A stretch of 64,000 bases of DNA from Rubellimicrobium roseum (GTDB lineage Bacteria > Pseudomonadota > Alphaproteobacteria > Rhodobacterales > Rhodobacteraceae), in assembly GCF_006152145.1 (NCBI RefSeq), contig NZ_VDFV01000015.1:1-64000 (forward strand), in the 5' to 3' direction. Made by a program: the position numbers and the translations under genes. The notes below the pieces were generated by a model, which saw nothing but the letters and a program-made list of their open reading frames with translations, searched no databases and was not told the DNA's origin. Positions 6,089 to 23,618 of the stretch are shown here, in pieces (positions within the stretch are counted from its first letter, which is position 1; each line of letters starts with the position of its first letter).

Positions 6089-6212
6089 GGGCTGCCTCCA
6101 CTGTACCGGCGGTGCAGTTGTGCGGGCCACAACGCCCCGGCCGAGGTCGTTCCGGGAGTATAGGCCTTCGACAAACCAAACGAATTTCTGGCGCTCTCTA
6201 CTATACCGCAAG

Positions 6213-6228
6213 TTCTCTGGAGAGAGAA
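6213..6228. promoter_or_regulatory. Perfect inverted repeat, candidate TetR operator
   Basis: TTCTCT-GGAG-AGAGAA, two 6-base arms around a 4-base spacer, sits between the divergent TetR gene and the methyltransferase-like gene. An A/T-rich TACTAT hexamer at 6199-6204 could be a -10 element just upstream. Position and symmetry fit a TetR-type operator; binding is inferred only. Confidence 0.45.
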
Positions 6229-6280
6229 TGCCATGTTGAGGCATCTGAAGGCCATTCGAGCATTTCGAAAGGACCTGCAT

Positions 6281-7228
6281 ATGACCCGCATTGAACGCCT
6301 CCTGTCCACCGCACGGCCTTGGTTGGCCGATGGCGGCCTTGAGACATCGCTGATCTATCATGACGGCCTCGACCTGCCGTCCTTTGCTGCCTTCGTGCTT
6401 TACGGGAGTGACGGGGGCCGCGCGGCGCTTCGGCGCTACTTCGAACGCTACATCGATGTGGCACAGGCGCATGGAACCGGCTTCGTGCTCGACACCGCGA
6501 CCTGGCGGGCCGGTACGCGCTGGGGCCGGGCGCTGGGTTACGACGAGGCGGCGATCCGCTCGATCAATGCCGAGGCTATTCAGTTTGCGGAAGAGCTGCG
6601 GCGCCAGCACGAGACGGAGGCCACACCCATCGTGATCAACGGCATCGTCGGACCTTCGGGGGACGGCTACGTCGTGGGCGCAGAGCTTCCGGCAGCCGAG
6701 GCCGAGGCGCTGCACCGGGCGCAAGTCGGGGCCTTGGCGGAGGCCGGCGCCGACCTCATAACCGCCACGACGATGAACCATGCCGGCGAGGCCATCGGCA
6801 TCGTGCGCGCAGCCAAGGCCGCCGGCGTGCCCGTCGCGGTGTCCTTCACCGTCGAGACGGACGGCTGCCTCCCTTCGGGGCAGTCCCTGGCCGAGGCGAT
6901 CGGGGACACCATGGACGCGACGGACGGCGCGCCGGTCTACTTCATGGTCAACTGCGCCCATCCGAGCCATTTCGCGGATGTGCTGCGGGGCGACTGGGTC
7001 CGGCACGTGAGCGGCGTGCGCGCCAACGCCTCGCGGATGAGCCATGCGGAGCTCGACGCGGCCACGGAGCTCGACGCGGGCGACCCGGAGGAGTTCGGAC
7101 AGCTCAGCGCAGCTTTCCGACACGTCTTGCCGAACCTGCGCCTGCTGGGTGGCTGCTGCGGCTCGGACCACCGGCACATCGGCTGCACGGCCCGACACAT
7201 CGGTGCTTCGGCTCACGTGGCGGCCTGA
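6281..7228 (+). CDS. Homocysteine S-methyltransferase family protein (MmuM-like)
   Basis: The 315-residue protein belongs to the betaine/homocysteine S-methyltransferase fold. The N-terminal WLADGGLETSLIYHDG is the family opening, and the three zinc ligands are in place: a Cys in FMVNCAHP (about residue 222) and the Cys pair in LLGGCCGSD near the C-terminus. Such enzymes move a methyl group from S-methylmethionine or another donor to a thiol, usually homocysteine; the donor here is not predictable. The ATG at 6281 has GAAAGGA upstream; an in-frame ATG at 6233 would add 16 residues and sit on the operator, so the later start is preferred. Divergent from tetR; an alpha/beta hydrolase follows. 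Confidence 0.85.
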   Translation: MTRIERLLSTARPWLADGGLETSLIYHDGLDLPSFAAFVLYGSDGGRAALRRYFERYIDVAQAHGTGFVLDTATWRAGTRWGRALGYDEAAIRSINAEAIQFAEELRRQHETEATPIVINGIVGPSGDGYVVGAELPAAEAEALHRAQVGALAEAGADLITATTMNHAGEAIGIVRAAKAAGVPVAVSFTVETDGCLPSGQSLAEAIGDTMDATDGAPVYFMVNCAHPSHFADVLRGDWVRHVSGVRANASRMSHAELDAATELDAGDPEEFGQLSAAFRHVLPNLRLLGGCCGSDHRHIGCTARHIGASAHVAA

Positions 7229-7325
7229 CCGCATCGAGTCCACGGCTCTGGGCAGGACCGAGCCTTCGGTCCTGGCCGACCGGCTTTGCCGGCCGCTCGT
7301 CCTTTTCTGATTGCATGAGATTGAC

Positions 7326-8153
7326 ATGACCCAAATCCTTCGAGCCCATGACGTCGATCTGGGCAACGGCATCACGCTTCCCGTGAGGGAGCAGGGCGAT
7401 CCCAATGGTCCGCCGCTGATCCTCCTGCACGGCAACACCGACAGCTGGCGCAGCTTCGAGCCGGTCCTGCCGTTCCTTCCGGCCCGGCTGCGCGCCATCG
7501 CCATCACGATGCGCGGACACGGGGATGCCACGAAGCCCCCCACGGGCTACGCGCCGGCCGACTTCGCGGCGGACGTCGTGGCCCTGCTCGATGCGCTCGG
7601 CCTGCCAAGGGCGGTGATCTGCGGGCACTCCTTCGGGGGCCTCGTCGCGCAGATGGTCGCTCTCGGTCATCCCGAGCGGGCCGAGGGCCTCGTGCTCGCC
7701 GGCGCCTTTCCCGGCATGGAGGGCAACCCCGCCATCCAGGACTTCTGGGACGGCACGATCGTCCATCTGGGCGACGAGCTCGACCTGGACTTCGCCCGCG
7801 AGTTCCAGGCGGGCTGCGTGGCGCAGTCGCCGGCCCCGCCCATCGTCGAGATGGCCGCACGGGAGAGCGTCCGGACGCCAGGATGGGTGTTTCGCGAGTC
7901 CGTCCATAGGGCGATGGCGCTCGACCTCCGGCCCGAGTTGTCCCGCATCCGTGTGCCGACCCTGCTGATCTGGGGCGGACAGGACGGCTTCGTCTCCCGT
8001 GACGACCAGGAGGACCTGCGGCGCGGCATCCCCGGCGCCCGGCTGCTCGCCTACGAGGAGGCCGGCCATGCCGTCCACTGGGAGGAGCCCGAGCGTTTCG
8101 CACGCGACCTTACAGACTTCGTGGACCGTCTGCGTTCCCGACGCGCCGCCTAG
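7326..8153 (+). CDS. Alpha/beta-fold hydrolase
   Basis: The 275-residue product is a soluble alpha/beta hydrolase. The oxyanion-hole LLHGNTDSW is near residue 36, the nucleophile serine is in ICGHSFGGLVA near residue 101, the acid is probably Asp in IWGGQDGF and the base histidine is in EAGHAVHWEEP near the C-terminus, so the triad is complete. Substrate is unknown; the set is closest to the haloalkane dehalogenase/peroxidase/esterase group. An alternative in-frame ATG at 7311 would add five residues; neither start has a good ribosome-binding site. It follows the methyltransferase-like gene by 97 bases and is probably co-regulated by the TetR protein. Confidence 0.85.
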   Translation: MTQILRAHDVDLGNGITLPVREQGDPNGPPLILLHGNTDSWRSFEPVLPFLPARLRAIAITMRGHGDATKPPTGYAPADFAADVVALLDALGLPRAVICGHSFGGLVAQMVALGHPERAEGLVLAGAFPGMEGNPAIQDFWDGTIVHLGDELDLDFAREFQAGCVAQSPAPPIVEMAARESVRTPGWVFRESVHRAMALDLRPELSRIRVPTLLIWGGQDGFVSRDDQEDLRRGIPGARLLAYEEAGHAVHWEEPERFARDLTDFVDRLRSRRAA

Positions 8154-8464
8154 GCCGGGGCTCCGGTCATCCTTTCCGCCCCGCCCGCGGATGGCGGGAG
8201 CGCAACCCATCATTGTATCAACCCAAGGTTGTACAATTATGGCAATCACTTTTTCGCCTCGCTCGTCCACCGCCAAGCCATTCTTTAGGATCTGACCGGC
8301 GGTCCAAGGCATCTCGGCAATCATCCCCTGCAGGACATCGGACGGAGGCCCGATCAGCTCCGCCGTCATCGGCCCGCTTCTCGGGCCACCGAAGGCCGCT
8401 GACAATCGGGCTGCCGGTTCTCGCTCCTTTCGACCATCCACTTTTACTACAAAGGATCATTTCC
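8154..8464. other. Intergenic region with a palindrome, upstream of the TPR gene
   Basis: No gene is seen in this 311-base stretch. It contains the inverted repeat at 8213-8236 annotated separately and is noticeably richer in A/T near 8205-8260 than the surrounding coding DNA, as expected for a promoter region. Confidence 0.5.
8213..8236. promoter_or_regulatory. Near-perfect inverted repeat, candidate operator
   Basis: Left arm TTGTATCAACC (8213-8223) and right arm GGTTGTACAA (8227-8236) are reverse complements apart from one extra T in the left arm, around a CAA centre. It lies 229 bases before the TPR gene. The regulator is unknown. Confidence 0.4.
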
Positions 8465-10216
8465 ATGCTTCGCCTTCCCCTTCGCGCCCTGTTCCTGTCG
8501 TCGGCGCTTGTCACTCCCGCTGTCGCCCACGAGGGCGAGCGCCACGAGACGGCCCCTCCACGTACCGAGCTCTTTGCGCCAGGAGTGCAGCATGTCGCCG
8601 CCGGATCGGCATCCCCGTCAGAAGTCCAAGCCTCCACTTCGACCGTCCCGCTTGGCGGGGCCGTGCTCGTTTCGGGCCTCGGCGACTACGACCTTGATAT
8701 TGAAGCCCCCGCCGACCCCGCCGCGAGCCTCTGGTTCGACCAAGGCTTGGGCCATCTCTGGGGCTTCAACCATGCCGAGGCCGTGCGCGCCTTCCACCGT
8801 GCCCAGGAGATCGACCCGGGCTGCGCTCTCTGCTTCTGGGCCGAAGCACATGCTCTCGGGCCCAACATCAACGATGGGATGCATCCGGAGGCCGAGGCAC
8901 GCGCCTGGGAAGCCGCGAACCGCGCGGCCGATCTCGCCGCGACGCCGCTCGAGCGGGCGCTGACGGAGGCGCTCCTGGCCCGCTATGCGGAACCCGGCAG
9001 CGGTGACCGCGCTGCCCTGAACCAAGCCTATGCAGAGGCCATGTCCGGGGCCGCCGCGCAGTTCCCGGGCAACGCCGACGTCCAGGCTTTCGCCGCGGAT
9101 GCCTGGATGGTGGTGCGGCCCTGGGACTACTGGGAGGCCGGAGGCGAGACCCCCAACGAGGTGGGCGCGACGGTTCTCGCACATCTGGAGGCGGCCCTTG
9201 CCCTCGCACCCGACCACCCGGGGGCGCTGCACCTCTACATTCATGCCGTGGAGGCCTCAGCCGATCCTGCCCAGGGCGAGGATGAGGCCGACCGGCTCGC
9301 GGCGCTCGATCTCGCGGCGGGGCACCTCGCGCATATGCCCTCGCACATCTACAACCGGATCGGCCGCTACGCCGACGCGATCGCCGTGAACGAGGCCGCC
9401 ATCGCCGCCGACGAGGCGTTCCTGGCGCGGTCCGGCGGCGAGGTCAGTCAACTCTACCGCTACGGCTACGTCCCCCACAACGTCCACTTCCTCCTCGTGG
9501 CCGCGCAGTCGGCCGGCGCGGCGGAGCCGGCGGTGGCGGCGGCCGATCGGCTGGCCGCCATCACGTCGGACGAGGTCTCGGCCGATCTGGCTTGGGTGCA
9601 GGCGATCCGTACCGCGCCGTTCACCGTGCACGCGCAGATGAGCGACGCAGCCACCATCCTCGCGCTTCCCGATCCCGGGCCCGAGTTCCCGCTGCTCCGG
9701 GGCTTCCGGCACTATGCGCGCGGTCTGGCCTTCGTTCGCGAGGGCGACCTCGGGGCCGCGCGGAGCGAGTGCGCCGCCATCGAGGCGATGATCGCGAAGG
9801 CCGACTTCGCGGACCTCGAGGCCCAGTACATGCCCGCGCGCGACCTCCTCGGGATCGCGAGCCGCATCGTCGCGGCAAGGGTGGCCGAGGCGGAGGGCGA
9901 TGGCGAGGCCGCGGTGGTTCTCCTTGAGGAAGCCGTCGCGATCGAGGTCACGATCCCCTACATGGAGCCCCCCTACTGGTACGCCCCCGTTCACCGCACG
10001 CTCGGCGCGGTCCTGCTCGGGCAGGGGCGGGCGGCCGAGGCGCGGGACGCATTCCAGGCCGCTCTGGCCCGGGCGCCGCGCGATGCCTGGACATTCTGGG
10101 GTCTCTGGCAGGCGGAAGAGCTGATGGGCGAGGGCTCCCGGACCGACCAGGCCCGTCAGGCCTTCCACGAAGCCTGGCTGGGCGGGCCGGAGCGGCCCAC
10201 CGCCGATCGGCTCTGA
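8465..10216 (+). CDS. Secreted tetratricopeptide-repeat protein
   Basis: A 583-residue protein with an N-terminal signal peptide (MLRLPLRALFLSSALVTPAVAHEG, cleavage after VAHE or TPAVA likely). The mature part is alpha-helical with TPR-type repeats: DQGLGHLWGFNHAEAVRAF followed by DPGCALCFWAEAHALG, later LEAALALAPDHPGALHLYIH and GAVLLGQGRAAEARDAFQAA near the C-terminus. Family members of this kind are found as uncharacterised periplasmic proteins. Two cysteines in CALCF could be structural. The ATG at 8465 (AAAGGATC upstream) starts exactly at the signal peptide. It is transcribed alone and ends before a strong hairpin at 10278. Confidence 0.8.
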   Translation: MLRLPLRALFLSSALVTPAVAHEGERHETAPPRTELFAPGVQHVAAGSASPSEVQASTSTVPLGGAVLVSGLGDYDLDIEAPADPAASLWFDQGLGHLWGFNHAEAVRAFHRAQEIDPGCALCFWAEAHALGPNINDGMHPEAEARAWEAANRAADLAATPLERALTEALLARYAEPGSGDRAALNQAYAEAMSGAAAQFPGNADVQAFAADAWMVVRPWDYWEAGGETPNEVGATVLAHLEAALALAPDHPGALHLYIHAVEASADPAQGEDEADRLAALDLAAGHLAHMPSHIYNRIGRYADAIAVNEAAIAADEAFLARSGGEVSQLYRYGYVPHNVHFLLVAAQSAGAAEPAVAAADRLAAITSDEVSADLAWVQAIRTAPFTVHAQMSDAATILALPDPGPEFPLLRGFRHYARGLAFVREGDLGAARSECAAIEAMIAKADFADLEAQYMPARDLLGIASRIVAARVAEAEGDGEAAVVLLEEAVAIEVTIPYMEPPYWYAPVHRTLGAVLLGQGRAAEARDAFQAALARAPRDAWTFWGLWQAEELMGEGSRTDQARQAFHEAWLGGPERPTADRL

Positions 10217-10331: not shown

Positions 10332-11423
10332 TCAGGGTCGTGCTACGAAGTAGGCGTTGAATGGGTCGTGCGGCAGCCGCGTCACGGTGACATTGGCGAA
10401 GCCTGCCCTTTCCAGCATCTCGGTCGCCGTCTCCATGCCCCACATGGCGCCCAGGCCCTGACCGCCTTGGCCCAGCGACACGGGCGTGCAGTGCATGGTG
10501 GACATCATGTAGAGGAATGGCGCGATCGGGTGGGCGAGGTTGTTCTCGAGCCGACTCGATGCTCCGAACTCCACCATCAGAAACACTCCACCGGGGCGGA
10601 GCGCCTTGTGAGCGGACCGGAGCACCGCCTGAGGATCGGCTTGGTCATGGATCGCATCGAACGCGAACAGGACGTCGAACTCGCCGTCCAACCCCCGAGA
10701 CAGGTCCTGGGACCGGAAGGCGAGGTTCCGCAGCCCCTTGCTCCACGCTGCCGCCTCGGCCGGAGCGAAGGCCGCCTCGCACAGATCGATCCCGCTGAAG
10801 CGGCTCCGGGGAAAGCGTTCGGCCAGCAGGAGAAGCGCCCGGCCGGCGCCGCAGCCCAAGTCCGCCACGTCGATGCCGGCCTCCAGCCGGTCGGTCAGCC
10901 CATCGACGAGGGGCAGGATCGATCCCACAAGCGGCATCACCGTGGTCTGGTAACTGACCTCGCCCATGACCTCGTGGAAGCGGCCGTAATGGTGGTAGTG
11001 CATGCCCTCCCCATCATGGAAGCGGGCAAGGATCTCCTCTTCCAGCGCGCTGACCACGCTGGGGAACTGCATGGTGGCGGCCAGGTTCTTGACCGAGCCC
11101 TCGCGGGTCAGGAAGGCCGCGTGCTCGCGCGGGAGGGTGTAAGTTCCTGCGACAGGGTCGTAGGTCACGACGCGCGCGGCGACCATCACGCCCAGCCATT
11201 CGCGCACATAGCGCTCGGCCAGCTTCGCGCGGCGGGCCAACTCGACCGAGGTGCAGGGCGAGGCGGCGGCCATTTCGTCGAAGAGCCATGTCCGGTGACC
11301 GATGGAGGCCATCAGCGCCAGGGCCGCGCCGTTCAGCGCCGTCAGCATCTGGCCCGCGAAGGCCTTGGCCTTGGCTTCGTCGAAGGCGGTTTGCCGCGCG
11401 AGACTTGGTTCATGATGCGTCAT
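10332..11423 (-). CDS. Class I SAM-dependent methyltransferase with N-terminal winged-helix domain (module 1)
   Basis: The 363-residue protein has an N-terminal winged-helix dimerisation/recognition domain (residues about 40-110, with ELARRAKLAERYVREWLG) followed by a Rossmann methyltransferase domain. The SAM-binding motif I is VADLGCGAGRALLLLAERFP at about residue 185, with the acidic GIDLCE after it, DVLFAFDAIHDQADP as motif IV and LRPGGVFLMVEFG as post-motif. This layout is that of the Rv2258c-like methyltransferases; the substrate is unknown. An AAGGAGA site supports the ATG at 11423. It is divergent from a GlxA-type regulator and clearly paralogous to the gene at 17076-18146. Confidence 0.85.
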   Translation of the reverse strand: MTHHEPSLARQTAFDEAKAKAFAGQMLTALNGAALALMASIGHRTWLFDEMAAASPCTSVELARRAKLAERYVREWLGVMVAARVVTYDPVAGTYTLPREHAAFLTREGSVKNLAATMQFPSVVSALEEEILARFHDGEGMHYHHYGRFHEVMGEVSYQTTVMPLVGSILPLVDGLTDRLEAGIDVADLGCGAGRALLLLAERFPRSRFSGIDLCEAAFAPAEAAAWSKGLRNLAFRSQDLSRGLDGEFDVLFAFDAIHDQADPQAVLRSAHKALRPGGVFLMVEFGASSRLENNLAHPIAPFLYMMSTMHCTPVSLGQGGQGLGAMWGMETATEMLERAGFANVTVTRLPHDPFNAYFVARP

Positions 11424-11569
11424 GTCAATCTCCTTGGGATCAATCCGAATGGGGTCCGGGAGCCGCCGATCTGGCGCGAGCCGGATGGCCGGGGAGCTAC
11501 CGGCAGGACGGCTCATGTGATAGGTTCGGATCCGATGGAAACGGGCCGGATCGGAACGGAGCCGCCGCC

Positions 11570-12640
11570 ATGGCCGAGGCGCGTCCGCTGAGAACGGTGG
11601 TCGTCGGAGCGCCAGAGGTCGGCGCCGCCGGAACCATGGCGCTGCTGGACGTGCTCTCCTCTGTCGGACGGAGCTGGGAGGTGCTCCACGGGCGGCCCCC
11701 GCAGCCGCCGGTCTTCGCCCCCAGGCTCCTTACCCTAGATGGTCAGGCGCTGACCTTGCGCAATGGGCTCGCTCTCACGCCGCACGGACGGCTGGACGGG
11801 ACGCCCGCGCCCGACCTCGTCATCGTGCCCGAGCTCCTCGTCAGCCCCCTGGCGCCCTTGCCTGCGCATTATGCTCCTGTCGCGGACTGGCTGCGCGGGG
11901 CTCATGCCTCGGGTGCGCTCGTCACCTCCGTCTGCTCGGGCGTGCTTCTTCTGGCAGAGGCGGGCCTGTTGGATGGGGAGGAGGCCACGTCGCATTGGGC
12001 GTTCTGCGACGTGATCGCCCGCCGTTTCCCGAAGGTGCGGCTGCGCAAGGAGCGCATCCTCGTGCCCACCGGGCCGGGCCACCGCATCGTCACCGCAGGC
12101 GGCGCCTCCTCGTGGTACGATCTCCTCCTTTATCTCATCGCCCGCTTCGCCGGATCTGACCGGGCGCGGCAGGCGGCCAAGGTGTTCCTCATCGAGGCGC
12201 ATGCCGAGGGCCAACTCCCCTTCGCCGGACTCACGGCTAGGCGCCAGCACGAGGACCGGCTCGTCGCCGAGGCCCAGCTCTGGCTGGCGGACGGCTACGT
12301 GACCGCAAACCCCGTCCGGGAGATGGTGGCCCGCAGCGGGCTGACTGAGCGCGGGTTCCATGCCCGCTTCAAGCGCGCCACGGGGCTTGCGCCCATGGAC
12401 TACGTACAGGTCCTGCGGATCGAGGAGGCCAAGCATCTGCTGGAGACCACCGACCTGCCTGTGGACGAGGTCGCCGAGGCGGTGGGCTACCAAGAGCCCG
12501 CGAGCTTCCGCCGCCTGTTCCGCCGCGCGGTGGGCGTCACCGCCTCGGCCTACCGTCGGCGCAACCTCCTGCCGGCGGTGGTGTCAGCGGAGCCTGCGGC
12601 GGACCTGGAGGCCAAGAGCCGCGCCCCCCGAACTCGCTAG
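11570..12640 (+). CDS. GlxA-family AraC-type transcriptional regulator with DJ-1/PfpI domain (module 1)
   Basis: The 356-residue protein joins an N-terminal DJ-1/PfpI amidotransferase-like domain (residues 1-190) to a C-terminal AraC helix-turn-helix pair. In the first domain, PDLVIVPELL and the nucleophile-elbow-like TSVCSGVLLLAEAGLLDG are visible, followed by ERILVPTGPGHRIVTAGGASSWYDLLLYLIARF. In the second, NPVREMVARSGLTERGFHARF and ATGLAPMDYVQVLRIEEAK form the HTH, and VAEAVGYQEPASFRRLFRR the signature. In this family the DJ-1 domain senses a small molecule and is not known to be an enzyme. The start is ATG 11570; the 146-base gap to the divergent methyltransferase gene should carry the shared promoter. 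Confidence 0.88.
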   Translation: MAEARPLRTVVVGAPEVGAAGTMALLDVLSSVGRSWEVLHGRPPQPPVFAPRLLTLDGQALTLRNGLALTPHGRLDGTPAPDLVIVPELLVSPLAPLPAHYAPVADWLRGAHASGALVTSVCSGVLLLAEAGLLDGEEATSHWAFCDVIARRFPKVRLRKERILVPTGPGHRIVTAGGASSWYDLLLYLIARFAGSDRARQAAKVFLIEAHAEGQLPFAGLTARRQHEDRLVAEAQLWLADGYVTANPVREMVARSGLTERGFHARFKRATGLAPMDYVQVLRIEEAKHLLETTDLPVDEVAEAVGYQEPASFRRLFRRAVGVTASAYRRRNLLPAVVSAEPAADLEAKSRAPRTR

Positions 12641-12927
12641 TGCGGTAGCAGAAGCGCGACGGTGGTCGGATGTGGTCCCCGATCCAGGGCGGGCCGGGCT
12701 GATCAGCATCCGGAAGACCGTTGTTTTGAAGCATACGCTCGTCGAAGGGAAGCCACATGGAGACCAGCCAATGGCTGGCCCAGTGCAGCCCACGAGATCC
12801 GGAGACGCCGTGTAGGCAGGTCGAAGCTGAAAGGCATGACATCCTGTGGTTCCATCCTGCGCGCGAATGCTGGGGAAGGACGGCGTCGAACTCCGCGCCG
12901 AAGCCGTCCTTGGAGGGATCAGGCTCG

Positions 12928-14073
12928 TCAGTGCGTATGGGCGCGGGGGTCGTCGGGCATGCCCTCGATCATGTTCACGGTGAAGCCCGCTTCCTTGAAG
13001 GTGTCGATGCTGCCGACGGACTCCATGGCCGCGAGGTCCACCACGGTGATCGAACCGTCGTTAAGCCCATCGATGTTCATGAGCCCGTTCTGGACGAACG
13101 CGAGCGCCCCGTCCGCCGAGAAGGTCATGTGGTGCGCCCCCGGAGCGGTGCCCACGGCCCCGAGGTGCCGGGGGTTGCGAGGGTCCGAGATGTCGAAAGC
13201 GTTCACGTGGCCGGGGGCGGCGGTGGTCACATAGGCCCTGGCGTTCTCCTCGTCGAAGTAGACCTCGAGCGCCATGCCCTGCCCGAGAGCCGTGAAGTCG
13301 AAGCCCTGCCGGAACGCGAAGGCCTCCGCCCCTGGGTCCCACTCGGCGATCCAAAGGTCGCCCTGGGGGATGTTGGTGACATAGGCCACCGGCGGCTCGG
13401 CATGCGGCACAAAGAAGATCTCCACCGGCCCCGAGGGCGCCTCGGCCCCCGCCGCCCGGGTGGAGTGGACGGCAACCACCTCGCCTGTCTGGAGGTCGAG
13501 CTCGGTGACGCTGTCGCCGTACTCGCCCATCACGGCCGGGTTCGCGGTGCTCGTCACGAGGATGCGCCCGAGGTCCTCGCGGACCGTGATGCCGTGGGGC
13601 CAGGGCTCGGGCAGGTCCCAGACCTCCTCCACCTCGTCCGTGGCGAGGTCGCCGACGATGACCTTGGAACTGCCCATGCAGGTGAGGAACCAGCGACCCG
13701 TGGCAGGCGAGAAGGCGACATCCTCGCCCACGACGCAGTCGGGAACGGCGATCTCGGTCCGTCGGTAGGGCTGGGCCGTCATGTCGAAGACATGGAGCAC
13801 CGGCGAGCCCAGCGAGGTCACATAGGCGCGGGTCCGGTCGGGGTTGTAGAAGATGTGGTGTCCCACCGTTCCAGTGGGCAGCGGATACTCGACCAGGACC
13901 TCGCCGAAGTCGGGCGAGGCGGGATCGATGTCGAGCACCGCCATGCCCTCCCGGCGGGGCTCGGTGGTCATGCCCTTGGTCTCGAAGAGAACAAGGGCGG
14001 TCTGCTCGGCCATGGCGGCGCCTGCCAATGCCAAGGTCGCCGCGCTGGCGAGAAGGGTCGTTCGGAATGTCAT
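12928..14073 (-). CDS. Secreted YncE-like beta-propeller protein
   Basis: The 381-residue product starts with a clear signal peptide (MTFRTTLLASAATLALAGAAMAEQ). The mature chain is made of repeated beta-propeller blades of the YVTN/lactonase type: AVLDIDPASPDFGEVL, RAYVTSLGSPVLHVFDM, GRILVTSTANPAVMGEYGD, VAYVTNIPQGDLWIAEWD, RAYVTTAAPGHVNAFDISDP and ALAFVQNGLMN. These proteins are periplasmic or extracellular and often of unknown ligand. A histidine-containing C-terminus (DDPRAHTH) ends the protein. GGAG precedes the ATG at 14073. It is located between the two regulator/methyltransferase modules and divergent from the MATE gene; no catalytic residues can be named. Confidence 0.78.
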   Translation of the reverse strand: MTFRTTLLASAATLALAGAAMAEQTALVLFETKGMTTEPRREGMAVLDIDPASPDFGEVLVEYPLPTGTVGHHIFYNPDRTRAYVTSLGSPVLHVFDMTAQPYRRTEIAVPDCVVGEDVAFSPATGRWFLTCMGSSKVIVGDLATDEVEEVWDLPEPWPHGITVREDLGRILVTSTANPAVMGEYGDSVTELDLQTGEVVAVHSTRAAGAEAPSGPVEIFFVPHAEPPVAYVTNIPQGDLWIAEWDPGAEAFAFRQGFDFTALGQGMALEVYFDEENARAYVTTAAPGHVNAFDISDPRNPRHLGAVGTAPGAHHMTFSADGALAFVQNGLMNIDGLNDGSITVVDLAAMESVGSIDTFKEAGFTVNMIEGMPDDPRAHTH

Positions 14074-14396
14074 GATCGTATCTCCGTAGGGAACGGGTCG
14101 TTCCGCGCGCGATTTGCTGCCAAGGCCGACCATGACGTCCTGCTAGGCGACCAGCCTGCTCCTGCCGAGGTTCGGATCGGCCAGAACCGGGCCGTTTCGG
14201 CCGACACCGTCGCAGAAGGCGAAGATGCGGTCCTTCGGATAGAGAGATCTGGGGCCAGGCAACAACAATGCGGGGTTGTGGCCGATACGGCCCGGAGCTG
14301 GCCGATGCGGCTCTGACGGCATTGGCTGTGCCCGAGTAGGCCCGGGGCTTCCGGCGCCATCCGGCCCCGGCGCAGCACATTTCTCGGAGCCTTCAG
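14074..14396. other. Divergent promoter region of the beta-propeller and MATE genes
   Basis: A 323-base stretch between divergent genes. No gene is supported. No inverted repeat stands out; the region presumably carries both promoters. Confidence 0.5.
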
Positions 14397-15815
14397 ATGT
14401 CTCTTTCCCTCTCCCGGCCCTTGGGCCAGCCGCGGTCCCGTGCCTCAATGAGCTGGACGGACCGACTCGGCGAAACCGGCGCGCTTGTCCGCCTGGCCGT
14501 TCCCATCATGCTGATCGCCCTGGTCAACATGGGCATGAGCGTGACCGACGCGGCCATGGTGTCGGCGCTCTTCGGCACCGATGCCTTTGCCGCCGTGGCG
14601 GTTGGCAGCGACCTTTATTCCATTCTCTTCTATGTGGGCGCAGGCGTCGTCGCCGGTCTCTCGCCCTTCTATACGGCGGCAGCGGTGCAGGAGGATGCCG
14701 CCGGGGCGGCTCGCCTCGAGCGCATCGGCTGGCGCCTCGTCGCGCTCTGCGCTCTGGTGGCCGTGCCCGCCGTCTGGTTCGCGCCGCGCTGGCTCGTGAC
14801 TTTCGGTCTCGATGCGGACCTTCTCACTCAGGGGCGGGGCTACACCCGTACCATGGCGCTGACGCTCCTGCCGATGCTGGGCGTCGTGCTCCTGCGCACG
14901 CTGCTGACGGCGGCAGGGCGTCCCAATCTCTTTCTCAAGGTCACGCTGACCATGCTGCCGCTGAATGCGGCCACCAACTGGGTCCTGATGACCGGGCCCG
15001 GACCCCTGCCGGCCTTTGGTCCCACCGGCGCGGGCCTGTCCTCGTTCCTAGTGGCCTGCGGGACGCTGCTGGTGCTTCTGCTCGTGCTGCGGCGCGCGTC
15101 GCGGCGACCGGCGGACGCGAAGCGATCCCCTCCTGTCGCCTGGACCGAGCTTGCGCCCGTTCTCCGGGTCGGGCTTCCCATCGGGGTGGCCACCGTCGCG
15201 GAAGTGGGCATCTGGCTCGGTGCCACGCTCTACGCTGCGCGCTTCGGCACGGTCGAGGTCGCCGCTCATACGCTCGCCCTGAGGACGGCCGGAGTCGCTT
15301 ATGCCGTGCCCACAGCCCTTCTCCAGGCCAGCATGGTCCGCATCGCCCGGGCCGAGGCGCTGGGCGACGCGCGGGCGTCCAGGTCCGTCGTTACCAGCAG
15401 CCTGGGGTTGTCGGTCGCGTTCGGAGCGGCGCTCTGCCTTGTGCTGCTCAGCCTGGCGACTCCCCTGGCTCATGCAGTCTTCGACGATGGCGAGCTCGGC
15501 AAGGCAGCGGCGCAACTGGCGGGTTGGCTCCTCGCGATCCTGGGCGTGACGGAGCTGGTCCTGGGACCGGGTTCAGCGGCGACGGGCCTGCTCAGGGGGC
15601 GGAAGGATGCCCGTGCGCCCATGGTCCATGTGCTGGTCGGGCACTGGCTGGTGGGACTGCCGCTTGCGCTCTGGCTCGGCGCCGGGCTGGGGCTTGGCGT
15701 CGTCGGGCTCTGGTGCGCCCTGGGTCTCGGCACGCTGGTGGCTGCGGGGCTTTCGGTCGGGCGGCTGTGGTTGCATGGCAGGAACCGGGCGTCCGCAGCA
15801 ATGCAGGCGGCGTGA
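14397..15815 (+). CDS. MATE-family multidrug/metabolite exporter
   Basis: The 472-residue protein has about twelve hydrophobic segments arranged as two pseudo-symmetric halves, as in the NorM/DinF family of Na+ or H+-coupled exporters. Characteristic segments are LVRLAVPIMLIALVNMGMSV and TDAAMVSALFGTDAFAAVAVG in the first half, and VLRVGLPIGVATVAEVGIW with TLYAARFGTVEVAAHTLALR in the second. The ATG at 14397 has a GGAG upstream; a second ATG at 14448 (MSWTDRLG) is possible and would remove a basic 17-residue lead. It sits in the middle of the GlxA/methyltransferase region and could export a methylated product, but that is inference. Confidence 0.88.
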   Translation: MSLSLSRPLGQPRSRASMSWTDRLGETGALVRLAVPIMLIALVNMGMSVTDAAMVSALFGTDAFAAVAVGSDLYSILFYVGAGVVAGLSPFYTAAAVQEDAAGAARLERIGWRLVALCALVAVPAVWFAPRWLVTFGLDADLLTQGRGYTRTMALTLLPMLGVVLLRTLLTAAGRPNLFLKVTLTMLPLNAATNWVLMTGPGPLPAFGPTGAGLSSFLVACGTLLVLLLVLRRASRRPADAKRSPPVAWTELAPVLRVGLPIGVATVAEVGIWLGATLYAARFGTVEVAAHTLALRTAGVAYAVPTALLQASMVRIARAEALGDARASRSVVTSSLGLSVAFGAALCLVLLSLATPLAHAVFDDGELGKAAAQLAGWLLAILGVTELVLGPGSAATGLLRGRKDARAPMVHVLVGHWLVGLPLALWLGAGLGLGVVGLWCALGLGTLVAAGLSVGRLWLHGRNRASAAMQAA

Positions 15816-15822
15816 CGGTCGC

Positions 15823-15847
15823 GAAGGGGCGTGCGATACGCCCCTTC
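15823..15847. terminator. Hairpin between convergent MATE and GlxA genes
   Basis: GAAGGGGCGT and ACGCCCCTTC form a perfect 10-base stem with a GCGAT loop. The 3-prime arm overlaps the stop codon of the minus-strand regulator gene. Its place between two convergent genes suggests a bidirectional terminator. Confidence 0.65.
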
Positions 15848-16901
15848 ACTTCATGACGGTCTTGGTGCCCGCCGCGAACTCCGGCACCTGAAAACGTCGC
15901 CGGTAGGCTCCGGGCGCCATGCCGGTCGTGCGCTTGAAGAGGCGGCGGAAGAAGGCGGGCTCCTCGTAGCCCACCTGCCAGCTGATCTCGTCCACCGAGG
16001 CCGCCGTCCGCTCAAGGCGCCGCTTGGCCTCCTCGACCCGAAGGCGCTGGATATAGGCGATCGGGCTCAGGCCCGTCGCCGACGCGAAGCGGCGCTTGAA
16101 GGTCCGCTCCGCCAGGCCCGAGCGGCGGACCATCTCTTCCACCGGATTGGCGACCTGAAAGTGCCGCGCCACCCAGTCCTGCGCCGTCTGGATGGCCGAG
16201 TCGCCATGGTCGACGCGTCCCTCGAAGACGATGTAGGGCGCAAGGCCGTCCTGATGCCATTGCAGGGCGAAGGCGCGGGCCACCTCCTGGGCGGCGGTCG
16301 CGCCTGCGTACCGGGCGATCAGATATAGCACGAGGTCGTGCCAGGTCATCGACGCCCCCGAGGAGATCAGCTCCTCCTGTCGTCCCGCAACCACCAGCAC
16401 GCGCTCGGGGTGGATCGGCACCCGAGGGAAGGCCGAGGCGAACTGGCGGGCGTAGCCGTAATGCACCGTCGCGTCGACGCTGTCGAAGAGGCCCGTCTCG
16501 GCCAGCAGGAAAATCCCGGAGCAGGCCGAGCAGAGCAGGGCGCCCCGCGTGTGCATGGCGGTGAGCCACGCGACGAGCTCGGGGTGGCGTCCCGCGATCC
16601 AGCCTTCGGGGGGCAAGACCACCGAAGGCACAATCACGATGTCGGTCGCGGGAACCTCGGCCACCGCCCTGTGAATGCTGATCGGGATGCCGCTGGCCAG
16701 AGACAGCGGTCCGGAACGGGCACCCACGATCTCGACGCGGAAGGGCGAGGGCTGCGGCGGGCCGCCGCCCAGCGTCGGCAGGAACGCGAAGGCGCTCAGC
16801 ACATCGAAGATGCCCGTCAGCGTCGAGACCGCGCCCTCGGGCAGGGCGAGCAGGCTGACGTGCAGTGGCGCGGGGACGGCGGTCGGGCTCGTGTCCGGCA
16901 T
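15846..16901 (-). CDS. GlxA-family AraC-type transcriptional regulator with DJ-1/PfpI domain (module 2)
   Basis: A 351-residue relative of the regulator at 11570-12640. The N-terminal DJ-1/PfpI domain shows VSLLALPEGAVSTLTGIFDV, DIVIVPSVVLPPEGW and the elbow-like LLCSACSGIFLLAETGLFDS. The C-terminal AraC pair shows NPVEEMVRRSGLAERTFKRRF, ATGLSPIAYIQRLRVEEAK and VGYEEPAFFRRLFKR. AAGGAG precedes the ATG at 16901. It is divergent from the methyltransferase gene at 17076 across 174 bases, repeating the arrangement of module 1 in mirror image. It probably controls that gene; the sensed molecule is unknown. Confidence 0.88.
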   Translation of the reverse strand: MPDTSPTAVPAPLHVSLLALPEGAVSTLTGIFDVLSAFAFLPTLGGGPPQPSPFRVEIVGARSGPLSLASGIPISIHRAVAEVPATDIVIVPSVVLPPEGWIAGRHPELVAWLTAMHTRGALLCSACSGIFLLAETGLFDSVDATVHYGYARQFASAFPRVPIHPERVLVVAGRQEELISSGASMTWHDLVLYLIARYAGATAAQEVARAFALQWHQDGLAPYIVFEGRVDHGDSAIQTAQDWVARHFQVANPVEEMVRRSGLAERTFKRRFASATGLSPIAYIQRLRVEEAKRRLERTAASVDEISWQVGYEEPAFFRRLFKRTTGMAPGAYRRRFQVPEFAAGTKTVMK

Positions 16902-17075
16902 CGAAGGCTCCTTGACCGGAGAATACGCGCGGACGTCCCGCCGCGCCACGCCGTCCTGCTCCGGCGGCACGAATGGCCCGGTTCTGGCATGGGCCGCTCT
17001 GCCGCGCGGCGCGGGTCCGAGCGAGGTTGCCCGCACCCTCGGGACGCTCCCGAGCGACTGATCAAGGATTCAGAG

Positions 17076-18146
17076 ATGAAGGACTACCATTCGCATATCG
17101 ACCCCGCGAAGCTCGACGCGTTTGTGGGACAGGCGGTGCAGGACATCTCGGCCGCCTATGCCGGCGTGATGGTCAGCCTGGGCGACAAGCTTGGGCTCTA
17201 CACGGCCATGGCGGGCGCCGGACCCTTGAGTTCGCGCGAGGTCGCGAGCCGGTCCGGCTGCGCGGAGCGCTACGTCCGCGAGTGGCTCGGCTCGCAGGTC
17301 GCGGGCGGCTACGTCGTCTACCACGACATCAGCGACACCTATGAGCTTCCGCCGGAGCAGGCCTTCGTGCTGGCCGATCCCGACAGCCCGGTCTTCATGC
17401 CCACGGCCTGGAACATCCCCGCTTCCATGTGGGCGGACGAGCCCAAGGCACTGGAAGCGTTTCGCACCGGCAAGGGCATTGCCTGGGGCGACCACGACGA
17501 CAGGCTCGTCTGCGGGGTCGCAGCCTTCTACCGCAACGCCTACCGCCCGAGCCTCGTGCCGCTGTGGCTGCCTTCGCTCGACGGGGTGGTCGCAAAGCTG
17601 GAGGCCGGCGCGAAGATTGCGGATGTCGGCTGCGGTCACGGGCATTCGACCCTGCTGATGGCCGAAGCCTTCCCGAGGTCGCGCTTCTGGGGATTCGACA
17701 ACCACCAGCCCTCGCTCGACGAGGCGCGGGACCATGCCGATGGGGCAGGGGTACGCAACGCCAGCTTCCATGTGGCACGGGCGGACGACTATCCGGGCGA
17801 GGGCTACGACCTCATCTGCTTCTTCGACGCCCTCCACGACATGGGCGACCCGGTGGCCGCCGCCACGCGCGCGGCCCGGAGGCTCGCGCCGGGTGGTTCG
17901 GTGATGCTGGTCGAGCCCTTCGCCAACGACCGCGTCGGGCAGAACGTCTCGCCGGTGGCGCGGATGTACTACTCCGCTTCCGCAACGGTCTGCTGCGCTC
18001 ATGCGATCTCGGACGGCGGCCACATGGTGCTCGGGGCGCAGGCGGGCGAGGCGCGCCTGCGGGAGGTGTTCCGCAAGGCCGGCTTCACGCAGTTCCGGCG
18101 GGCGTTCGAGACACCGTTCAATCTGGTGCTCGAAGCAAGGATCTGA
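17076..18146 (+). CDS. Class I SAM-dependent methyltransferase with N-terminal winged-helix domain (module 2)
   Basis: The 356-residue protein repeats the architecture of the module 1 enzyme: a winged-helix region with VASRSGCAERYVREWLGSQV and TYELPPEQAFVL (residues about 50-110), then the Rossmann domain with motif I ADVGCGHGHSTLLMAEAFP near residue 183, WGFDNHQPS after it, YDLICFFDALHDMGDP and LAPGGSVMLVEPFAND. Both paralogs share the FPRSRF segment. A histidine and cysteine cluster near TVCCAHAISDGGH may help shape the pocket. Substrate unknown. The ATG at 17076 opens the conserved sequence. A double hairpin follows the stop. Confidence 0.85.
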   Translation: MKDYHSHIDPAKLDAFVGQAVQDISAAYAGVMVSLGDKLGLYTAMAGAGPLSSREVASRSGCAERYVREWLGSQVAGGYVVYHDISDTYELPPEQAFVLADPDSPVFMPTAWNIPASMWADEPKALEAFRTGKGIAWGDHDDRLVCGVAAFYRNAYRPSLVPLWLPSLDGVVAKLEAGAKIADVGCGHGHSTLLMAEAFPRSRFWGFDNHQPSLDEARDHADGAGVRNASFHVARADDYPGEGYDLICFFDALHDMGDPVAAATRAARRLAPGGSVMLVEPFANDRVGQNVSPVARMYYSASATVCCAHAISDGGHMVLGAQAGEARLREVFRKAGFTQFRRAFETPFNLVLEARI

Positions 18147-19692: not shown

Positions 19693-20568
19693 CTACAAGT
19701 AGCTCCGAACCAAGCTTCCGGCTACGAGGCTCCAGCCATCCGCGACCACGAAGAATGCGAGCTTGAAAGGCAGGGCCACGATGGCTGGTGGGACCATCAT
19801 CATGCCCATCGACATGAGGACCGCGGCGACCACCAGATCTATGATCAGGAACGGCAGATAGATCAGGAAGCCGATCTGGAAGGCCCGCGTGAGTTCGCTC
19901 AGGAGAAAGGACGGAACGAGGACCGACAGGGGGGCGTCCGCGGGGGCGATGCCCGGGTCGAGCTGCGGGCGCAGGGCCACCAGCGCATCAAAGGTGTCCG
20001 CTGCGACACGGCCTGCCATGAAGATCCGGAACGGGGCAAGGGCGGCCGTGAACGCCTGCTCGAGCGGAAGACGCCCCTCGACGAAGGGCTGAACTCCGGT
20101 GGCCCAAGCTTCGGCGAGAACCGGCTCCATCACGAACCAGGTCAGGAACAGCGCAAGCGTCACGAGGAGCATGTTGGGTGGGGCCTGCTGCAGGCCCAAG
20201 GCTTGTCGCAGGATCGACAGAACGGTCACCACGAACGGAAAGCAGGTGACCATGATCGCCAGCCCCGGAACGAGGCTCAGAACCGTCACGAGCACCAGAA
20301 GCTGAAGCGAGCGCGTGGCCAGCGATCCGTCACCGCCCAGGTTCAGCGTCACCTCCTGCGCCACGGCAGGTCCGGCCGACATCGCCAACGCCGTCAGCAA
20401 GGCCAGCGGAACGATTCGGCACCCATCTCCTGACCGACTGCCGGTCAGGAGCGGCCAGTGCCGGGGCCCGGACCGCCGGACCGTCGCGGGTTGGCAATTC
20501 GACCATGCGGAGGAGCCGAGGCTGCCAAGTCCCGCTGTCGCAGCACCGGGGGTCTTGGTCCGGATCAT
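19693..20568 (-). CDS. fliP: Flagellar type III export protein FliP
   Basis: FliP forms the core export gate (FliP5-FliQ4-FliR1) in the flagellar basal body. The family motifs are clear: LQLLVLVTVLSLVPGLAIMV, FPFVVTVLSILRQALGLQQA, PPNMLLVTLALFLTWFVM, LLSELTRAFQIGFLIYLPFL and VLMSMGMMMVPP. The ATG at 20568 overlaps the fliN stop as ATGA, so translation is coupled. At 291 residues it is longer than usual (about 245): some 50 residues precede the predicted signal segment PLALLTALAMSAGPAVAQ. A later non-ATG start is possible but no candidate is obvious. It is the last gene of the minus-strand fliF-fliH-fliN-fliP unit. Confidence 0.93.
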   Translation of the reverse strand: MIRTKTPGAATAGLGSLGSSAWSNCQPATVRRSGPRHWPLLTGSRSGDGCRIVPLALLTALAMSAGPAVAQEVTLNLGGDGSLATRSLQLLVLVTVLSLVPGLAIMVTCFPFVVTVLSILRQALGLQQAPPNMLLVTLALFLTWFVMEPVLAEAWATGVQPFVEGRLPLEQAFTAALAPFRIFMAGRVAADTFDALVALRPQLDPGIAPADAPLSVLVPSFLLSELTRAFQIGFLIYLPFLIIDLVVAAVLMSMGMMMVPPAIVALPFKLAFFVVADGWSLVAGSLVRSYL

Positions 20569-20858
20569 GTTAGGTCGCCCTGTGGACGCGCGACCTCGGT
20601 CAGCCGCACCGCGAGCTGGCCGCCGTCGCCTCCCGGCAGTTCCTGCAGCTCACCACGGGCGATGAGGCGCTCTCCGATGTAGAGTTCCACCGGATCGTCG
20701 ATGCGCCGGTCGAGCGGCATCACGGCTCCCGGTCCCATCTTCAGCAGGTCGCGTACGAGCGGGCGAGCCCGCCCCACCGAGATCGTCACTTCGATGGGCA
20801 GGGCGCGCAACGGGTGGTCAGCCCCGAGGGGCGCGAGGGGGGAGGACGGTTCATCCAT
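20565..20858 (-). CDS. fliN: Flagellar motor switch protein FliN
   Basis: The 97-residue product is essentially one SpoA domain: HPLRALPIEVTISVGRARPL, VRDLLKMGPGAVMPLDRRID and DPVELYIGERLIARGEL, the conserved FliN core that sits at the base of the C-ring and binds FliM and FliH. The start at 20858 has AAAGG upstream and overlaps the fliH stop by 8 bases; an upstream in-frame ATG at 20882 would add eight residues. It ends in the ATGA overlap with fliP. FliM is not encoded in the window. Confidence 0.92.
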   Translation of the reverse strand: MDEPSSPLAPLGADHPLRALPIEVTISVGRARPLVRDLLKMGPGAVMPLDRRIDDPVELYIGERLIARGELQELPGGDGGQLAVRLTEVARPQGDLT

Positions 20859-21427
20859 GACGGACCTTTCCGGAGGTGGCATCGAGAAGGGTGGACAGCG
20901 CCTCGCGCAGGGCGAGAAGGCAGGCGTCGAGGTCCAGGTCCGACTCGCCCTCGCGTGAGGTGAGCCGCGCGGCCTGGAGCCCCAGCGCGGGATCGGGCCG
21001 CAGTTGCGCGGGCAGCCCCGGTGGCAGGCAGGCCCGCACGGCCCCGAGGCGTTCGGGGTGCAGGTGAATGACCAAAGGAGTCGCGCTGTCGGCGCGCGCC
21101 GCGTCGAGCAGGGCCTGCACCAGCCAGGGCGCCACGGCCTGGGCCGCGATGGCCGGCAGGAGACGGTCGATCAGCAGCTCGAACAGCGGCCGCAGCGACG
21201 CGAGGACCTGGCCACGCGCTTCGGCGTAGTTGAAGGTCATATCCTGCAGTTTGCCGGCAAGATCGGCCGACAGCCGGTCCGACCGGGTGTCGGCCTCGGC
21301 CCGTCCGGCCGCGAGGCCCTCGGCCTGTCCCGCGGCGAAGCCCTCCAGCCAGCCAGTCGGCGGACGGGCCGGGCGGCGCATCCTGAGCCAGACCCGACGA
21401 ATCGAAGGATTCGAGCACAAGCCCCAT
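20851..21427 (-). pseudogene. fliH: fliH, interrupted by a 4-base repeat frameshift
   Basis: FliH regulates the export ATPase FliI. The start ATG at 21427 lies one base after the fliF stop and reads MGLVLESFDSSGLAQDAPPG and so on to ADWLAG. The rest of the protein is in another frame, from WLEGFAAGQAEGLAAGRAEA through DLDLDACLLALREALSTLLD to the stop at 20851. The break falls at three tandem copies of CCAG on the plus strand (21345-21356); with two copies the frame is continuous (ADWLEGFAAGQAEG) and gives about 190 residues. The span, 577 bases, is 573 plus 4. Either a true mutation, a reversible slippage site or a sequence error. Confidence 0.85.
21345..21356. repeat. (CCAG)3 tetranucleotide repeat inside fliH
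   Basis: Three perfect tandem copies of CCAG (CTGG on the coding strand) mark the exact point at which the fliH frame breaks. Loss of one unit restores the reading frame. Confidence 0.9.
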
Positions 21428-21428
21428 G

Positions 21429-23009: not shown

Positions 23010-23129
23010 GAGGGATCCTCCCGCGGCCGAGGCTTCTGCCCCACATCGGCAGAATGCCGGCGCAGCCTTAAGATTCGGTTAGCTCCTCCCGGTTTATGTG
23101 AGGGCGATCGCTTCGACCGGAGAACCCGC

Positions 23130-23618
23130 ATGACCGCTGCATCCGACGCGCCCGCCCCGGACAAGCCCAAGGCGTCCCGGCTGCCCCTGATCCTCGGCCT
23201 CGTCCTGGCCCTGGTCGGGGCGGCGGGGGGCTTCGCGGCCGTGCACCTGGGGTTGCTGGGCCAGCCGCACGACGAGCCCGCCCCTGCTGCGGAGGAGGCG
23301 CACCTGCCCGAGCTGGCCCCCGCCGCCTTCGTGGTCCTGCCGCCCCTGGTGGTGAACCTCAGCGCCGAGGGCGCGCGGCGCTTCCTGCGCTTCGCCGGCC
23401 AGCTCGAGGTCGCGCCCGAGCACCTGGACGAGGTGACCGCCCTCACGCCCCGGGTGGTGGACGTGCTGAACGGCTACCTGCGCGCGCTCGAGCCGCAGGA
23501 GGTCGAGGACCCGGCCGCCCTTCTCAAGCTGCGGGCGCAGATGCTGCGGCGCGTGCAGGTCGTGGCCGGCGGGGACCGCGTGCGGGACCTCCTGGTCATG
23601 GAATTCGTCATCAACTGA
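23130..23618 (+). CDS. fliL: Flagellar basal-body-associated protein FliL
   Basis: The 162-residue protein is a single-pass inner-membrane protein: a short cytoplasmic lead, a membrane segment LPLILGLVLALVGAAGGFAA (about residues 18-37), a linker and the periplasmic FliL domain (FVVLPPLVVNLSAEGARRFL, RFAGQLEVAP, VVDVLNGYLRAL, VRDLLVMEFVIN). FliL associates with the stator and supports torque. GGAG precedes the ATG at 23130. It starts the plus-strand unit that leads to motA. Confidence 0.92.
   Translation: MTAASDAPAPDKPKASRLPLILGLVLALVGAAGGFAAVHLGLLGQPHDEPAPAAEEAHLPELAPAAFVVLPPLVVNLSAEGARRFLRFAGQLEVAPEHLDEVTALTPRVVDVLNGYLRALEPQEVEDPAALLKLRAQMLRRVQVVAGGDRVRDLLVMEFVIN

Follow-up and report, generated by a model that had tools for sequence, protein, structure and literature searches.

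Six genes at positions 10332 to 18146 of a 64,000-nucleotide stretch of Rubellimicrobium roseum DNA (contig NZ_VDFV01000015.1; the whole stretch is called the window below) probably constitute one inducible methylation and export detoxification regulon with a patchy and partly plasmid-borne distribution. This reading draws on gene content, on paralogy without local duplication, on recurrent co-occurrence of the parts in other genomes and on predicted operator sites shared by the genes. MT1 and MT2 denote the methyltransferase-type genes, REG1 and REG2 the GlxA-type regulators, PROP the propeller and MATE the exporter; HMT stands for homocysteine S-methyltransferase, FMO for ArsO/TMM-like flavin monooxygenase and BBE for berberine-bridge-type FAD oxidase. 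A slash between two of these names marks a divergent gap, and G and L numbers are labels for sampled genomes and loci. Six open reading frames were re-called in the window with refined starts; they and the predicted operators are as follows.

10332-11423, minus strand: MT1, HTH_65 plus class I S-adenosylmethionine (SAM)-dependent methyltransferase-type protein; nearest solved relative PDB 5f8c, 334 bits
11534-11559, minus strand: predicted GlxA operator facing MT1, 111 bp ahead of the MT1 start
11570-12640, plus strand: REG1, GlxA-type regulator, DJ-1/PfpI plus AraC helix-turn-helix (HTH); Rhodobacterales clade (support 100/100)
12928-14073, minus strand: PROP, secreted-looking beta-propeller of the SBP56/methanethiol-oxidase fold
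14180-14205, minus strand: predicted GlxA operator facing PROP, 107 bp ahead of the PROP start
14277-14302, plus strand: predicted GlxA operator facing MATE, 146 bp ahead of the MATE start
14448-15815, plus strand: MATE exporter, NorM-like, MatE domain over cut-off
15846-16901, minus strand: REG2, GlxA-type regulator, AraC HTH, DJ-1 below the Pfam cut-off; rhizobial/Chelativorans clade (support 100/98)
16963-16988, plus strand: predicted GlxA operator facing MT2, 88 bp ahead of the MT2 start
17076-18146, plus strand: MT2, HTH_65 plus class I SAM-dependent methyltransferase-type protein; 76% identical to Chelativorans

The two regulator/enzyme pairs are each divergent and lie in mutually opposite orientation, with PROP and MATE, likewise divergent, between them. 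The intergenic gaps measure 146 bp for REG1/MT1 (11424-11569), 174 bp for REG2/MT2 (16902-17075) and 374 bp for PROP/MATE (14074-14447). The mirror arrangement of six genes in the original prediction is confirmed by the re-called reading frames and the domain scans: each module pairs a DJ-1/AraC regulator with a paralogous winged-helix methyltransferase (the DJ-1 match of REG2 being sub-cut-off), and a secreted beta-propeller (signal peptide by reading) and a MATE exporter (MatE over cut-off) stand between the modules. An Rfam scan gave no match and a tRNA scan found none.

In the proposed regulon REG1 and REG2 would be ligand-sensing GlxA-type activators, related yet of separate lineages, that bind similar operators 88-146 bp upstream of MT1, PROP, MATE and MT2. 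On sensing a small, probably toxic molecule they would switch on these target genes. MT1 and MT2 may then methylate the sensed molecule, or two related molecules, at the expense of SAM, and the MATE pump would export the methylated product. The secreted, SBP56-like PROP could act on the product in the periplasm, perhaps oxidising thiols with the help of copper. The locus would be a composite of a Rhodobacterales-type REG1/MT1 pair and a rhizobial-type REG2/MT2 pair around PROP and MATE.

Motif models for the operator were learned outside the window, from the REG1/enzyme gaps of 10 loci and the REG2/MT2 gaps of 6 loci, and hold 30.8 bits (REG1) and 36.7 bits (REG2) of information, against 19-21 and 25-27 bits in base shuffles (three each). 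A frame TGKC-N8-NCCG is common to most sites. The combined model of 15 sites, from which the G055 REG1/HMT site was omitted as identical to the Litoreibacter site, has the consensus ..TGGC.GAAA.G.CCCG.TT..G.C. Over the 64 kb and both strands, the top three sites are 14180(-), 11534(-) and 14277(+) under the REG1 model, and 16962(+), 14181(-) and 14276(+) under the REG2 model; that is, each model finds the gap of its own regulator and enzyme and, in addition, two diverging sites in the PROP/MATE gap. In a second model build the three best window sites of each model again all fell within cluster gaps. The sites at 11534 and 16962 are expected from gap homology; the two sites in the PROP/MATE gap are not. 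In both builds the PROP site at 14180 is the top site of the REG1-only model and the runner-up of the REG2-only model; the MATE site at 14277 ranks third under both single models in the first build and second (tied) and third in the second. The REG2 model has its best score (20.0) at the MT2 site, and the REG1 model its second best (12.4) at the MT1 site, 11534. With the combined model the window scores run 19.7 (14180), 16.7 (16963), 15.4 (14277) and 10.3 (an unrelated site) before the MT1 site is reached. The four predicted sites, 88-146 bp ahead of the genes and each facing its gene, are placed as would be expected of activators.

Chance and untrained loci provide further comparison. Among 300 first-order Markov windows the mean number of sites of at least 15.4 was 0.16, none reached 19.7, and 0 of 300 had two within 374 bp. 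In untrained loci, the five REG/BBE gaps all hold the locus-best site (one tied), facing the oxidase; the REG/PROP gap of a Rhodospirillales metagenome-assembled genome scores 14.8, and the gap before the G091 regulator 19.2. Chelativorans PROP has a further site of 25.2 at -157 (its MT2/REG2 gap is a training locus). The 16 PROP loci without an adjacent REG relative (L126, L127, L129-L142) gave at most 10.4 within 400 bp upstream. In the whole 4.85-Mb genome, the pattern of the three strong sites has 0 further sites at up to one mismatch, 1 at two and 8 at three, and the reversed control gave four; circularity affects the exact window matches of this pattern but not the lack of further close ones. 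The two-mismatch site, on contig C59, faces no gene start; its flanking genes read as RTX-type and as dprA. A predicted GlxA operator (16.6) was also seen at 121-146 of plasmid NZ_CP022420.1 (L153), about 77 bp upstream of a vanadium-dependent haloperoxidase.

Co-occurrence of the parts was followed from PROP, from the enzymes and from MATE. Genes in fetched DNA were called with a codon-usage script, which missed some (none called in L065 and L074-L077; REG2 missed in L128) and gave an antisense frame for the window REG2; window genes in script-missed loci were placed by tblastn. A pattern-seeded scan of an 84,980-species genome collection with a PROP alignment yielded at least 23 loci. PROP is 53-65% identical in 8 of them, and within the fetched DNA a full-length REG relative lies within 4 kb in 6 of these 8 and in none of the 15 more distant loci. 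The arrangements include REG1/MT1-PROP-MATE in Tropicimonas (MATE 45%), REG1/MT1-FMO-PROP in Litoreibacter, REG1/HMT-FMO..PROP in Jannaschia, REG1/MT1-PROP..MATE in Silicimonas (MATE just 33%), REG/PROP in the Rhodospirillales genome, and MT2/REG2 followed by PROP in Chelativorans. Two side observations concern the remaining PROP loci. In Halomonas rhizosphaerae (L126, 20875-21135) a GlxA-type HTH piece, 63% identical to REG1 over 87 residues, lies where the fetched DNA ends, some 9.7 kb from PROP. In 9 of 14 distant loci (L129-L142) the protein adjoining PROP reads as multi-pass, with an AHAFGxRYDLPLPL-like start; two such proteins were scanned and had no Pfam or NCBIfam family.

REG1 is divergent from MT1 in all nine other MT1 loci examined in the family or in Rhodobacterales (MT1 at least 47% identical; L065, L068, L069, L121, L122, L124, L153, L154, L193), with two small genes between REG1 and MT1 in Pseudosulfitobacter L153. 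Beyond these nine, relatives of MT1 also occur in Acaryochloris (H35) and Embleya (H36) and in 69 further plasmid records. REG2 is divergent from MT2 within 300 bases in 30 of 30 plasmid records, these being the best 30 of 260 MT2 records at 1e-30. MATE relatives are rare: 5 of 394 family genomes, the window's own included, have one at E<=1e-60, and of 72,556 plasmids 2 do at E<=1e-50, each with REG1 and MT1 as well; on the Ruegeria plasmid MATE lies about 7 kb from REG1. The other four MATE genomes show REG1/MT1-MATE (G274), REG1/HMT...FMO-MATE (G055), HMT...MATE without GlxA (G257) and an apparent cupin-AraC regulator, by reading (G244). The mobilizable (PLSDB typing) plasmid NZ_CP022420.1 of Pseudosulfitobacter pseudonitzschiae holds five of the six in a stretch of about 12 kb that spans the plasmid origin, at identities of 61% (MATE), 66% (REG2), 65% (MT2), 55% (REG1) and 59% (MT1). 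The search for the same arrangement elsewhere had a divided outcome: in none of the other loci examined was the full order of six seen, and subsets recur, this plasmid being the nearest. A small-molecule methylation/export system, as originally proposed, gains support insofar as the parts recur together and appear to share a predicted operator, and an exact-term search of the open-access literature found no account of a system of such composition. As a separate observation, five genomes (L115-L119) have a GlxA regulator divergent from a BBE oxidase, followed by HMT in 4 of 5, with a predicted operator in the gap; the BBE assignment is by Pfam for L115 and by similarity for L116-L119.

The regulators are 41% identical to each other. 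REG1 scores 30.3 bits for DJ-1/PfpI (Pfam cut-off 26.6) and 82.2 for HTH_18 (33.6); REG2 scores 86 bits for HTH_18 and 21.9 for DJ-1, under the cut-off, and the FtrA profile spans its residues 54-339. FtrA and GbdR, GlxA-family regulators that likewise join a DJ-1/PfpI-like sensor to an AraC HTH, are the top two NCBIfam matches of both. REG1 and REG2 differ from them in falling far under the cut-offs (FtrA 165 and 177 against 425 bits; GbdR 79 and 71 against 480) and in being partnered with methyltransferases, a propeller and a MATE protein. MATE itself scores 111.4 bits for MatE (Pfam cut-off 24.9) in two stretches, and NCBIfam NorM-type models stay under their cut-offs.

MT1 and MT2, 37% identical, match HTH_65 with 114.6 and 72.8 bits (Pfam cut-off 24.1) and Methyltransf_31 with 72 and 64.3 bits (cut-off 27). 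The two HTH_65 matches in the source genome are both inside the window. An MT2 relative at E<=1e-30 is present in 2 of 8 genomes of the genus, the window's own and G250 (49%). By phmmer the nearest solved relative of MT1 is PDB 5f8c, named in its record just 'Methyltransferase', which we take to be Rv2258c; that of MT2 is TnmJ (PDB 8g5s, 173 bits). MT1 and MT2 share the two-domain architecture of both and can be aligned with them nearly full-length. SAM-binding motif I is kept with its acidic residue (VADLGCGAG in MT1, IADVGCGHG in MT2, aligned to ADFGCGSG of 5f8c), in contrast to AHVGSGGG in TnmJ, and methyl transfer is the better guess for both window proteins because this residue, absent in TnmJ, is retained. 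Elsewhere, MT2 relatives (48-50%) in L067, L070, L071, L073 and L184 follow an alpha/beta-hydrolase protein encoded on the same strand. The one hydrolase scanned, in L067, carries a fused LuxR-type HTH, and therefore a different regulator accompanies the same kind of enzyme.

PROP (381 residues) is, by its predicted structure, a relative rather than a proven member of the SBP56/MtoX group. An AlphaFold2 model built from 22 sequences has a mean predicted local distance difference test (pLDDT) score of 90.4, and the best match of this model is Sulfolobus SBP56 (2ECE), with a Foldseek E of 6.1e-15 (next 3.6e-12) and, by VIA-align, Z 38.8 and a root-mean-square deviation of 2.6 over 348 residues (next Z 33.2). 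Compared by profile with three MtoX proteins that exceed the NCBIfam cut-off, PROP gave 97% probability over 324 columns at 21% identity; the MtoX profile matches all 22 PROP relatives (best E 1.2e-13), whereas 19 of the 22 match the SBP56 profile. Filing PROP as a methanethiol oxidase was rejected, given 22.6 against 34 bits for SBP56 (Pfam) and 33 against 650 for MtoX (NCBIfam). Invariant residues include HH72-73 (22 of 22), His160, Glu218, Glu270 and His314-315. The HH pair aligns with the HH of MtoX and one Glu with an invariant MtoX Glu; Asp118 aligns with a MtoX His that one of the three MtoX proteins replaces by Pro, and the alignment stops before the C-terminal His. The available text of PMC5739008 gives His89, His90, His140 and His412 as likely copper ligands of Hyphomicrobium methanethiol oxidase (MTO) and describes the enzyme as secreted, as PROP also reads. 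For human SELENBP1, the available part of PMC10362175 reports lost activity in mutants at H73, H74, H137, H140, D189 or E252. PROP differs in length (381 against about 435 residues), in falling far under the family cut-offs and in the uncertain positions of the other ligands. No MauG relative was found in the window by a search aimed at MauG (SCO1 was not searched), and the source genome has no MtoX match at 1e-10.

Several observations weigh against a single regulon. In Roseovarius, PROP and MATE accompany a cupin-AraC regulator (scanned) with no GlxA neighbour, and the cupin-AraC regulator of the Halomonas PROP locus is assigned to that family by similarity. No GlxA gene lies near the Planctomyces and Rubrobacter relatives of MT1. 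PROP is absent from the Pseudosulfitobacter plasmid and from all other plasmids searched (1e-20), and PROP and MATE are both absent from the five rhizobial REG2/MT2 loci viewed, so the six genes are not obligate partners. The combined model gives the MT1 site a weak score (8.9, fifth). In the REG2/MT2 gap the score from the REG1 model is 7.3 (eighth), and the REG2 model reaches at best 3.1 in the REG1/MT1 gap; since each scores the other regulator's gap poorly, the two models overlap yet differ. Real control DNA is noisier than the Markov windows, with 5 sites of at least 15 in 506 kb (about 0.6 per 64 kb) and scores up to 18.6, and in L033 two control sites (18.4 and 15.0) overlap on opposite strands. 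PROP has no site of its own in Tropicimonas, Litoreibacter, Silicimonas and Jannaschia (L121-L124; best forward score 4.5 within 400 bp), which fits co-transcription with MT1 or HMT in the first three and not clearly in Jannaschia, where there is a 1-kb gap. Lastly, TnmJ, the nearest solved relative of MT2 by sequence, is listed as a cofactor-independent oxygenase in the available text of PMC11181247.

Genes of related operons offer a lead, and a lead only, towards methyl-sulfur or soft-nucleophile chemistry. In G274 an MddA-like protein (226 bits, cut-off 270) follows MATE in an operon with no PROP, giving REG1/MT1-MATE-MddA-like-decarboxylase against REG1/MT1-PROP-MATE-decarboxylase in Tropicimonas, whose fetched DNA has no MddA-like gene. 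G055 and G257 carry an MddA-like gene in an HMT cluster with MATE, and in G231 one lies beside HMT without GlxA. Across 246 family genomes, 6 hold MddA-like genes at 1e-40, those of G055 and G231 in HMT clusters and four without module genes nearby. The likeness to the methanethiol S-methyltransferase MddA resides in these sub-cut-off genes of related operons; the source genome differs in having no MddA match at E<=1e-40. HMT stands in MT1's place in Jannaschia and G055, and G055 adds MauG and an ArsO/TMM-like flavin monooxygenase. MddM1 and MddH are hydrogen sulfide and methanethiol methyltransferases according to the available text of PMC12904073. Beside HMT or MddA-like genes (L192, L194, L204), or in an MT1-FMO operon (L153), there recurs a small protein (about 180-210 residues) that looks secreted by reading; neither of the two scanned matches a Pfam or NCBIfam family.

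A narrower form of the regulon, in which methanethiol, hydrogen sulfide or a toxic (di)thiol or selenol is handled, MT1 and MT2 S-methylate it and PROP oxidises the thiol in the periplasm, may be entertained tentatively. The fold relationship of PROP to SBP56 and methanethiol oxidase with its MtoX profile matches, the MddA-like gene in one operon (G274) and PROP in a comparable one (Tropicimonas), and the replacement of MT1 by HMT with the MauG and flavin monooxygenase genes of G055 all point this way. However, PROP misses both family cut-offs (MtoX and SBP56), the MddA-like proteins reach 226-245 of the 270 bits required, four of the six MddA-like family loci lack module genes, ArsO-like monooxygenases would fit arsenic equally, and the MddA-like gene and PROP occupy different operon positions.

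It is also conceivable, though unlikely, that the enzymes tailor a natural product, decorating and exporting a secondary metabolite made elsewhere in the genome, with methylation as self-protection or maturation. MATE pumps commonly export metabolites, as this alternative would have it. TnmJ moreover belongs to tiancimycin biosynthesis according to the available text of PMC9464397. Yet no synthase genes were recognised, by reading, around the cluster, and unrelated genes surround REG2/MT2 in the four rhizobial plasmids with annotation that were viewed, though their gene tables are incomplete.

The detoxification regulon can be elaborated further, into a picture that is rather unlikely to hold in full. 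Its target would be a thiol or other soft nucleophile, for example a dithiol antibiotic of algal- or plant-associated competitors, which would be methylated, pumped out by MATE and oxidised in the periplasm by a new copper branch of SBP56 propellers. The system would be patchy and partly plasmid-borne in Rhodobacterales and, in part, in rhizobia and Chelativorans, and would have arisen from the merging of two GlxA/methyltransferase units with similar operators.

That two unrelated GlxA/methyltransferase units, a propeller and a MATE gene are neighbours by accident is very improbable. The exact six-gene order was found in no other locus examined, and subsets do occur alone, as in rhizobial REG2/MT2 and in distant PROP genes with other neighbours, but the predicted operators in the PROP/MATE gap and the repeated co-occurrence of rare genes speak against it.

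The inverted duplication proposed in the original prediction, in which an ancestral GlxA/methyltransferase unit was copied inverted within the genome and then diverged, accords with the mirror orientation, the paralogy (37% and 41% identity) and the alike operator architecture, but is scarcely tenable, as every copy is far nearer to other-lineage genes than to its partner copy, MT1 scores higher against 5f8c (334 bits, phmmer) than against MT2 (181-189, BLASTP, whole-genome search), and approximately unbiased (AU) tests reject sister placement. Trees of 31 rows each for the methyltransferases and the regulators gave long-branch warnings and were rebuilt with 28 rows each, omitting L097 (a copy of L065), L075 and L079 from the methyltransferase test and L097, L094 and L100 from the regulator test, as long branches or duplicates. 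L066 was left out of the trees as the same genome as L124; L136, with stops in the matched range, was omitted from A2, and L143 as a fragment. With 28 rows, constraining MT1 and MT2 together changes the log-likelihood by -252 units (p-AU 1.5e-41), and REG1 and REG2 by -176 units (p-AU 3.8e-63).

Each pair has its nearest relatives in a different lineage, the kind of finding that the original prediction had named as speaking against duplication. In the 31-row trees REG2 groups with rhizobia and Chelativorans (100/98), while the clade around REG1 is one of Rhodobacterales (100/100). The MT1 clade has 12 rows, Planctomyces and Rubrobacter among them (97/93); the nearest rows to MT2 are Chelativorans (77% identical) and rhizobia, with no small, strongly supported clade containing it. 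MT2 and REG2 are 76% and 71% identical to genes of Chelativorans xinjiangense, and 72-76% and 69-75% to rhizobial plasmid genes. Among 248 sampled family genomes the two enzymes have separate relatives: G036, G217, G110 and G004 for MT1 (47-60%), and G004, G091 (two), G177 and G217 for MT2 (49-51%), with weaker ones (37-41%) in G172, G164 and G033. G217 and G004 each hold one relative of either enzyme on different contigs, and G147 has a 101-residue MT2-related piece (71%) at a contig end. The regulators divergent from BBE oxidases (L115-L119) fall on the REG1 side of the split with moderate support (90/83). Because of the trees, the AU tests and the closer relatives elsewhere, REG1/MT1 and REG2/MT2 are judged from their sequences to be separate lineages brought together here. 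Partner exchange between regulator and enzyme is possible, and a very ancient pair duplication may predate the spread of both lineages.

The surroundings of the cluster include, at 5465-10216, a TetR-type regulator (by reading), HMT, an alpha/beta hydrolase and a tetratricopeptide repeat (TPR) protein with a signal-peptide-like start. Two of these genes were considered as neighbours of doubtful regulon membership.

6278-7228, plus strand: HMT
7311 or 7326 to 8153, plus strand: alpha/beta hydrolase

The HMT-hydrolase pair also lies about 2 kb from REG2/MT2 in two Sinorhizobium plasmids (L152, L158). The HMT-hydrolase-TPR genes (6278-10216) have no upstream operator among the best window sites and were for this reason provisionally left out as regulon members. 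On the other side, 19693-33096 reads as a flagellar gene block, of which the comparison covered the fliP neighbourhood, and 46654-52957 resembles, by reading, a phosphonate C-P lyase (phn) cluster. Among the 8 genomes available for the genus, 5 have fliP. In the four congeners that do, the adjacent flagellar genes are retained, and the window proteins tested from the left of fliP have no match above 60 bits in the roughly 14-29 kb fetched beyond it from each, so the six genes seem to lie in a variable genomic region.

The regulon proposed here would give a shared context to HTH_65 methyltransferases, an SBP56-like propeller, a GlxA subfamily and a MATE clade, all of uncertain role. It offers a defined operator prediction and names a few classes of inducer and substrate. 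It also suggests a route by which regulator/enzyme units of different origin may be merged into one circuit through similar DNA sites.

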